This document shows positions 38,107 through 40,431 of a DNA stretch of 50,216 bases, piece after piece. The stretch is from the NCBI GenBank assembly GCA_019309115.1, contig JAFDGW010000028.1:1-50216 (forward strand). The letters are read 5' to 3'. This DNA comes from Deltaproteobacteria bacterium (lineage in GTDB: Bacteria > Desulfobacterota > Syntrophobacteria > Syntrophobacterales > Thermodesulforhabdaceae). How positions within the stretch are numbered: position 1 is the first letter of the stretch; each line of letters opens with the position of its first letter. The translations under genes and the position numbers were made by a program. Under the pieces are notes generated by a model. The model was not told the DNA's origin and did not search any database. It saw nothing but the letters and a program-made list of their open reading frames with translations.

Positions 38107-40431
38107 ATGGTGGGGAAGAATGTTTTCAACAGTGTTTTGGAATGCATTGGACACACTCCGCTGGTGAAAATAAACCGCCTGAACCCAAATTCCAAAGTAA
38201 CCGTTTATGCAAAGCTGGAATCGAAAAATCCTGGCGGTTCCATAAAGGATCGAGTCGCTCTTACAATGATTGAAGAAGCCGAGCGCAAAGGAGTTCTTAC
38301 AAAAGACAAAATCATAATTGAGGCCACCAGTGGCAATACAGGCATTGGTCTTGCTATGGTAGCAGCAGTAAAAGGCTACAGGGTTATCCTGGCCATGCCG
38401 GAAACGGCTAGTACGGAAAGACAGAAAATACTCAGGGCCTTTGGTGCCCAGATTCTGCTAACGCCTGGAACACTAGGAACTGACGGTGCGATAGAGGAAG
38501 TTTATCGCCTTGTGCGCGAAAATCCTGACCTTTACTTCATGCCGGACCAGTTTAACAACCCAGCCAATCCCTTGGCTCACTATTTAGGAACGGGCCCCGA
38601 AATTTATGAGCAGACTGACGGCAAGGTCAATGTCGTCGTCGTAACACTTGGCACGTCGGGTACGGCAATGGGAATTCTTAAGGCGATGAAAGAGAGAAAT
38701 CCCGACATAGAAGTTGTTGCCGTCGAACCCTATCCAGGCCATAAAATACAAGGCTTGAAGAATATGAAAGAATCCTACATTCCGGGAATCTTCGATCGCT
38801 ACGCCTTGGACCGCATAATCCACGTAAGGGATGAAGAAGCTTTTGAAATGGCGAGAAAGCTCGCTCGAGAAGAAGGCATCTTTGCAGGGATGAGTTCGGG
38901 AGCTGCTATGGCGGTGGCCATTAGAATGGCTCAGGAAAGAGAGGATGGTATCATTGTAGCAGTTCTTCCCGACGGCGGAGACCGTTATCTTAGCACCAAC
39001 CTCTTTACGGTCATGCTGGAGCCGGATTTCCGATTTTTTGATCAGCTGACAATGAAATTAAAACAACTAAAACCCGTAGAAGAAGGGAAAATTCGCCTGT
39101 TTATAACGGGTCCCCCCTTAGATGGATCTCTTACGATAAATGAGTCAAGAAGGTTTTTCGTTGCGGACCTCCTTGTTCGTTTTCTGGAAGCAAAAGGATT
39201 TTCCACCCTGGCCGTTATGACCGTGCCCGACCTTGATAGCAGAACCATACAGATGCTGGATCGTGCAGGAAAAGATTTCGAATCATTCGTCAAGGAAAAA
39301 CTTCAAGATCTCTTTGACCTTTTCGATAGATTTAACATAAAAAGACCCTACCGTTGCGCTAGGGTTTCGGAATACACGGATGTAATTGTCGATAAGGTTC
39401 AAGAACTTATTGACAAGGGCTTCGCTTATGAAAAGCTGAGATCCGTTTATTTCAATATATGTCGCTTTTCTGACTATGGAAAACTTGCCCACATTGACCC
39501 ACGGGAAACCGTTCCCGGCAAAAGAATTGATCCATCTCTTTTCGAAAAACAAAATCCTCGGGATTTTGCTTTGCTTAAACGAGCTAGTCTAAACGAGTTA
39601 AAACGAGGCCTTTACATGAAGGCCCGGTGGGGAAATGTAATCCCCACGTGGCACATTGCGGCTTCGACTATTTTGCTAAGCCAATGGGGGACACCTGTTG
39701 ACATCTATCTTAGCGGAGCGGACTTCCTCTTTCCCCATCTTGAAAACGTTCGGGTGGTTGGAGAAGCCCTTGCCGGTAAACCCGTAGCCCAGGTGTGGCT
39801 CGTATGTGAGCGGCTATGGGTACGCAAGAAGGCTTCGAGCGACGAATTTGATGAAACTACCACCCTTTATGACTTGCTGAATGAAGGATTCCGACCGGAA
39901 GAGGTCAGATTTTGGTTGCTGAGTGCTCACTACCGGAAGCCTCTCCACGCATCAAGAAGCGGACTTGCAAACGCAGTGAAATCTTTCAGGCGTCTCAGAC
40001 GCTTTGTTGCTGCACTTCATTTGCCGCCCGTGAAAAGTGGTGAATCTAATAGCAGGTTTTCCGACCTCCTCTATAAACTAGAACGGGAATTCTTTGATGC
40101 TTTATCAGAAGACATCAACACCCCGAAGGCATTGTCGGCGCTTTTTGCCTTTGTCCGCGAGGCTAATGCTATTATGCGGGAATCTGGCATAAGCGAGGAA
40201 GACAGGCAAAATACGCTGAATCTATTGAAAAAGCTTGATGCCGTGCTTGGGATCCTTGGTAAAGACCTGGTGCCTCCGGAACCTATAATAACTGAGCTTT
40301 TAAAGCGTAGGGAAGTGGCCAGATTGAATGGTAATTGGGACGAAGCGGATCGGTTGAGGCAAGAGTTGGAGGACAAAGGCATTCGTATTTACGACACGCC
40401 TGCTGGCACCAGGTGGGAACGCGTTGATTAA
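38107..40431 (+). CDS. Cysteine synthase fused to a degenerate cysteinyl-tRNA-synthetase-like domain
   Basis: Residues 1 to about 310 form a fold-type-II PLP enzyme of the CysK/CysM type, with K47 (GGSIKDR) as the PLP lysine, ATSGNTGIG substrate loop and the GTSGTAMG phosphate-binding loop. Residues 330-774 align with class I CysS along its length, including the C-terminal DINTPKALSALFAFVREAN and GNWDEADRLRQELEDKGI parts. However, the CysS signature residues are lost: zinc cysteine to T334, HIGH to TINE (343-346), second zinc cysteine to A519, zinc Glu to V548, and KMSKS to KKASS (574-578). Only H544 of the four zinc ligands remains. It is one continuous frame from the ATG at 38107. The first half is probably a working cysteine synthase. 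The second half probably does not charge tRNA and may be regulatory or structural. Confidence 0.92.
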   Translation: MVGKNVFNSVLECIGHTPLVKINRLNPNSKVTVYAKLESKNPGGSIKDRVALTMIEEAERKGVLTKDKIIIEATSGNTGIGLAMVAAVKGYRVILAMPETASTERQKILRAFGAQILLTPGTLGTDGAIEEVYRLVRENPDLYFMPDQFNNPANPLAHYLGTGPEIYEQTDGKVNVVVVTLGTSGTAMGILKAMKERNPDIEVVAVEPYPGHKIQGLKNMKESYIPGIFDRYALDRIIHVRDEEAFEMARKLAREEGIFAGMSSGAAMAVAIRMAQEREDGIIVAVLPDGGDRYLSTNLFTVMLEPDFRFFDQLTMKLKQLKPVEEGKIRLFITGPPLDGSLTINESRRFFVADLLVRFLEAKGFSTLAVMTVPDLDSRTIQMLDRAGKDFESFVKEKLQDLFDLFDRFNIKRPYRCARVSEYTDVIVDKVQELIDKGFAYEKLRSVYFNICRFSDYGKLAHIDPRETVPGKRIDPSLFEKQNPRDFALLKRASLNELKRGLYMKARWGNVIPTWHIAASTILLSQWGTPVDIYLSGADFLFPHLENVRVVGEALAGKPVAQVWLVCERLWVRKKASSDEFDETTTLYDLLNEGFRPEEVRFWLLSAHYRKPLHASRSGLANAVKSFRRLRRFVAALHLPPVKSGESNSRFSDLLYKLEREFFDALSEDINTPKALSALFAFVREANAIMRESGISEEDRQNTLNLLKKLDAVLGILGKDLVPPEPIITELLKRREVARLNGNWDEADRLRQELEDKGIRIYDTPAGTRWERVD

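Follow-up and report, generated by a model that had tools for sequence, protein, structure and literature searches.

The described system closest in logic to the protein analyzed here is HisZ, a class II histidyl-tRNA synthetase (HisRS) paralog that forms a separate subunit of the ATP phosphoribosyltransferase HisG and serves as a histidine sensor. In each of the two, the enzyme that produces an amino acid is joined by a catalytically dead paralog of the synthetase for that amino acid (PMC9437257). Two proteins derived from cysteinyl-tRNA synthetase (CysRS), namely MshC of mycothiol synthesis and CysRS* of Desulfobacterales, also operate outside normal tRNA charging. The anticodon domain is absent from CysRS* (PMC9437257) and from MshC, the latter with its CysRS chemistry intact.

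Here we describe a gene (positions 38107-40431, forward strand) in which a cysteine synthase is fused to a CysRS-like domain. It lies in the window, the whole 50,216-nucleotide stretch of contig JAFDGW010000028.1 of a Deltaproteobacteria bacterium (Thermodesulforhabdaceae), and all features of the gene given below are on the same strand. No published description of a cysteine synthase-CysRS fusion was found in the open-licence literature. The fusion may work like HisZ, yet it is not a HisZ: it has the class I CysRS fold, the connection is covalent, and the tRNA-reading domain is kept while the amino-acid site has decayed. Compared to MshC it is a mirror image, having kept the anticodon domain and lost the catalytic chemistry. 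The fusion shares its fold, PLP lysine and loops with CysM (E. coli 2bhs, M. tuberculosis 3dki) but differs from the M. tuberculosis enzyme by LKNM in place of LRNM and by the fused C-terminal pseudo-CysRS. With canonical CysRS (E. coli 1li5/1u0b, and the copy on contig C58 of the same genome) it shares the domain order, the fold and the anticodon readers; unlike them it lacks HIGH, KMSKS and three zinc ligands, and is joined to CysK. We read it as a working cysteine synthase with a tRNA-Cys-binding pseudo-CysRS that regulates or localises it, and give this reading a probability of about 0.5.

Architecture and distribution of the fused gene

The open reading frame starts with ATG and runs through 774 codons with no internal stops (774 aa). 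The cysteine synthase half (residues 1-300, positions 38107-39006) is of the CysM/CysK type of fold-type II PLP enzymes and matches the PALP domain (PF00291) over residues 12-289 with an E-value of 1e-74. A complete CysRS fold with catalytic, DALR and anticodon-binding domains occupies residues 307-773. It consists of a class I catalytic domain whose chemistry is lost (PF01406, 3.6e-48; residues 321-624, positions 39067-39978), a DALR_2 helical domain identified by a domain match (residues 662-717, positions 40090-40257), and the anticodon-binding domain CysS_C (residues 729-770, positions 40291-40416). In the alignment, R735, R739, W744, D748, R751 and D763 of the latter correspond to R423, R427, W432, D436, R439 and D451 of E. 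coli CysRS.

Profile scores place the two halves differently. The CysK half exceeds the subfamily cut-off of TIGR01136 (cysKM; 381.7 bits against 344) and misses that of the CysM equivalog TIGR01138 (367.7 against 394), so we regard it as a CysK/CysM-like enzyme with a subtype of its own. The CysS half aligns to positions 2-465 of the 466 in TIGR00435, in agreement with the initial annotation, which had called it complete in length, but scores below the cut-off (245 bits against 340); the MshC profile gives 88.7 bits against a cut-off of 485. An AlphaFold model built with 59 family members as input has a mean pLDDT of 88.9. Its CysK half matches cysteine synthase B (2bhs) with Z 43.2, and its CysS half matches CysRS structures with Z 45-48 (Z 45.1 over 438 residues for 1u0b, the complex of E. 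coli CysRS with tRNA-Cys) and MshC with Z 41.9.

The fusion was identified in 156 of the 395 sampled genomes of the phylum at E <= 1e-120, with matches extending across both halves in nearly all cases. Of 98 genomes of sampled relatives (source genome counted), 69 carry it. Named relatives belong to Syntrophobacterales, Desulfobacterales and similar groups. Since no fewer than 150 further genomes of the phylum have the same fusion, chance, misassembly and a fusion unique to this genome are ruled out. We found no conserved neighbor gene across the family, and hence nothing pointing to an operon or regulator partner; no Rfam element was detected close to the gene, and no tRNA-Cys inside the window. 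In one class-level lineage (L018, L124, L125, L126), a threonine synthase-like gene and a gamma-carbonic-anhydrase-like hexapeptide gene are located upstream of the fusion gene.

Active site and partners of the cysteine synthase half

The CysK active site is unchanged in all 159 distinct fusions in the alignment. It comprises the PLP lysine K47 (positions 38245-38247), which had already been noticed as retained, SGNTG, GTxGT (GTSGT in the window protein), S263, and K218-N219 of the HKIQGLKNM loop (positions 38758-38763). The CysK half is thus predicted to be an active cysteine synthase. Stand-alone CysK relatives with 53-62% identity do without a CysS half.

In the source genome (2.5 Mb, 96% complete) we found no second cysK, which makes the fusion the sole cysteine synthase there, and a search for cysE gave nothing above E = 1e-20. 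CysE, the partner of cysteine synthase, is therefore absent from this genome; it is not obligatory for the TIGR01136 family. We counted by hand the second cysK and cysE genes in 46 fusion-bearing genomes with at least 90% completeness and at most 5% contamination. Neither gene is present in 19 of them, including the source genome, while 25 have both, and two (G015 and G041) are discordant or unclear. The co-occurrence of the two genes is strong (Fisher p about 1e-10), and cysE adjoins the second cysK where looked at (G012). The 19 genomes suggest that in many organisms the fusion by itself suffices as cysteine synthase, independent of CysE, and we infer that it works without CysE-made O-acetylserine.

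The acceptor is perhaps O-phosphoserine. This is suggested by the absence of cysE together with the position of K218, which aligns with the arginine of LRNM in M. tuberculosis CysM, an O-phosphoserine sulfhydrylase. That arginine (R220) contacts the phosphate of the substrate. The same LKNM loop is present in CysK proteins of Nitrospirota whose genomes have serine acetyltransferase, so the loop alone cannot settle the substrate. The genomes without cysE, along with the intact CysK site and the kept tRNA-Cys readers described below, would also suit tRNA-dependent synthesis, where the CysK half acts on aminoacyl-tRNA-Cys held by the pseudo-CysRS in the manner of methanogen SepCysS. However, no well-assembled genome lacks a normal CysRS, and the fold of SepCysS is unrelated to that of CysK; we consider this scenario barely credible.

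Origin of the fusion and erosion of the synthetase active site

The initial annotation had listed the synthetase motifs missing from the window protein, and its list stands. The E. coli zinc ligands C28, C209, H234 and E238 correspond to T334 (positions 39106-39108), A519 (39661-39663), H544 and V548 (both within 39736-39750), respectively, with only the histidine surviving. HIGH is replaced by TINE at residues 343-346 (positions 39133-39144), and KMSKS by KKASSD (positions 39826-39843) within the segment VRKKASSDEF, where the alignment may be off by one residue; with or without that shift, the motif is lost. The zinc ligands of CysRS bind the cysteine thiolate. Judged by these residues, the CysS half in the clade of the window protein has lost the ability to activate cysteine and to charge tRNA. 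The organism does not depend on it for charging: a separate cysS with all motifs intact is located elsewhere in the genome (G000:C58:19851-21317), as the initial annotation had proposed to check, and this rules out the fusion as the only CysRS. The idea that the CysS half delivers cysteine to another acceptor by its own chemistry is left unsupported.

To describe the family, we aligned 159 distinct fused CysS domains with 22 stand-alone ones. Among the fusions, H234 is kept in all 159, whereas C28 is kept in 96, C209 in 110 and E238 in 79. The first histidine of HIGH remains in 64 copies, and the first and second lysines of KMSKS in 90 and three, respectively (arginine replaces the second in 48), with the caveat that the MAFFT register near KMSKS is uncertain in degenerate copies. 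In contrast, all 22 stand-alone proteins have HIGH (or HIGN) and KMSKS (KMAKS in one), and only two paralogs of about 427 aa depart from the zinc ligands. Parsimony on the tree of the CysK halves requires 5-20 changes per eroded residue, so the chemistry was lost many times. The losses are shared across the whole order of the window protein but not by the whole family: 51 copies are fully dead, with zinc C28, HIGH and KMSKS all missing, while in 19 of 159 the active site is almost complete, with HxG, K..R/K and every zinc ligand in place. From their motifs, these 19 may still activate cysteine, and a single function common to the entire family is therefore not required.

The short paralogs just mentioned (L128, G027:C44:133724-134959; L138, G012:C1:2100534-2101781) represent a type common in Syntrophobacteraceae genomes. 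Their zinc site is altered (WNIQDPA, YRHHDYN), their KMSKS is intact, the anticodon domain is missing, and ARAGORN detected no tRNA beside them. They are possibly related to CysRS*/SelC* of Desulfobacterales. A different CysS paralog (L127, G075:C1:594025-595398; 742-aa ORF) has about 250 extra residues C-terminal to the synthetase.

The tree supports a single origin, with all fused CysS domains on one side of a branch with SH-aLRT 100. Nearest to them is the CysS of a Nanoarchaeota MAG. In this MAG (L062:4965-7297), an unfused cysK (62% identical) is followed two bases later by cysS, and this CysS has insert features in common with the fusion family. A second archaeal MAG (L056) is similar. 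We propose that one fusion event joined a cysK and a cysS-like gene of the type still unfused in two archaeal MAGs (L062 and L056). The fused CysS half would then have been free to shed its chemistry, because each genome has a separate CysRS. A second route is seen in three Nitrospirota genomes, where CysE is fused to the N-terminus of an intact CysRS in ORFs of 711-731 aa (L251:1100-3232 in G438, reverse strand; L255 in G439; L256 in G436). Physical coupling of cysteine synthesis to CysRS thus arose more than once.

These couplings are relevant to the question of whether the fusion is a bifunctional enzyme, a backup or channelled synthetase that has gone on charging tRNA-Cys in the deep branches at least. 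Each archaeal pair contains an intact CysS, and its genome encodes no other; likewise, the Nitrospirota CysRS fused to serine acetyltransferase is intact and has no second copy beside it in the genome. Within the family, two deep-branch copies (L107 and L116) and about 17 others retain the zinc ligands, HLGx and mostly KMSRS, and the former two score 461 and 442 bits against the TIGR00435 cut-off of 340. Annotation pipelines may consequently call such intact-motif copies active synthetases, as they lie above the NCBIfam cut-off for cysteine--tRNA ligase. On the other hand, the three fusions with the second KMSKS lysine have not kept the remainder of the active site, and in the window protein, without HIGH, KMSKS or a zinc site and with an intact cysS elsewhere in its genome, charging is impossible by known chemistry. 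We regard continued charging as highly improbable.

Constraint on the tRNA-facing regions and proposed function

The CysS half evolves under purifying selection. For pairs with usable dS, its dN/dS is 0.06-0.14, which exceeds the value of the CysK half by a factor of at most about three and is far below neutral. These values accord with the view in the initial annotation that the conserved but chemically dead fold, joined to an intact cysteine synthase, is a sensor or allosteric module, and they indicate that selection maintains it. As measured by dN/dS of close pairs, the anticodon domain overall does not evolve more slowly than the catalytic part. A different pattern was obtained by comparing pairwise identities in the 51 dead copies with those in true CysRS. 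The three catalytic parts are less conserved in the dead copies (0.43 vs 0.60, 0.53 vs 0.77, and 0.31 vs 0.65), while the CP, DALR and anticodon regions are on a par (0.60 vs 0.61, 0.36 vs 0.32, and 0.50 vs 0.51, respectively). By this measure, the catalytic core of the dead copies is relaxed, and the tRNA-facing regions are constrained as in real CysRS.

The residues that read the anticodon are a case in point. PMC12684709 names R423, R427, W432 and D436 as contacts of E. coli CysRS to the anticodon base G34, citing Hauenstein et al. 2004 for G34 contacts, with R423 coming from its own analysis. All 51 dead copies have the equivalents of R423, R427 and D436 and an aromatic residue at W432; the same set (R, R, W/F/Y, D) is present in practically all of the 159 fusions, that is, in nearly all complete copies. 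The window protein has R739, W744 and D748 at the positions of R427, W432 and D436. Of random draws of four positions from the anticodon domain, 0.2% reach this level of conservation. The catalytic positions, in turn, exceed 99.9% of random sets in variability among the fusions. The C-terminal GTxW is lost in some fusion lineages, and the anticodon residues could be retained for folding rather than for tRNA binding.

A rival reading is that of a structural relic, a domain kept only because folding, stability or oligomerisation of CysK needs it. The repeated and independent loss of different motifs, and purifying selection acting without a common catalytic site, are what would be expected of a relic. 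It is harder to see why the full CysRS architecture of 470 residues and the anticodon readers would then persist in practically every complete copy, or why the stand-alone CysK relatives work without a CysS domain. We therefore rate the relic as a rather unlikely explanation.

The fusions have basic residues of their own near the former active site, R349 and R492 in all 159 copies and K499 in 157. Together with G501, these fusion-specific residues lie in the sequence beside or before the old motifs, and they may make a new contact to the CysK half or to the acceptor end of the tRNA. The three basic residues would also suit a HisZ-like allosteric sensor that takes free cysteine or another small ligand in the old active site, with no involvement of tRNA. 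A precedent is HisZ, an adenylation-dead HisRS paralog that regulates the enzyme at the start of the histidine pathway (PMC9437257), and the 19 near-complete copies could still accommodate such a ligand. However, the clade of the window protein lacks three of the four zinc ligands, its catalytic core is relaxed, and a small-ligand sensor leaves the retention of the anticodon readers unexplained; we find it unlikely. Of the ligands named in the initial annotation, cysteine and cysteinyl-AMP are disfavoured, since one zinc ligand out of four and neither of the ATP-site motifs survive; their binding by the CysS half in this clade is unlikely. The third, tRNA-Cys, is favoured by the kept anticodon readers and tRNA-facing domains.

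The main ground for proposing tRNA-Cys binding is that non-charging CysRS paralogs, such as MshC and the proteins of about 427 aa, have dropped the anticodon domain while the fusion keeps it. The C-terminal pseudo-cysteinyl-tRNA synthetase most likely still binds tRNA-Cys through this domain. Binding would then alter the activity of the synthase according to the supply or charging of tRNA-Cys; alternatively, it would place cysteine production at the pool of tRNA-Cys and CysRS. In its most specific form, in which the pseudo-CysRS reads the tRNA-Cys anticodon and the synthase is gated or placed by tRNA-Cys supply or charging throughout the phylum, the proposal is tentative.

Regulation of amino-acid synthesis by a dead synthetase paralog is already known from HisZ; in the present protein, however, the tRNA-reading part has been kept and the amino-acid part lost. 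The family also provides a graded natural series of synthetase repurposing, from nearly intact to fully dead copies. Across one phylum of sulfate reducers, cysteine synthase is joined to a copy of the synthetase that charges tRNA-Cys. If this copy does bind tRNA-Cys, the translational demand for cysteine would be tied directly to its synthesis in organisms that live with abundant sulfide.
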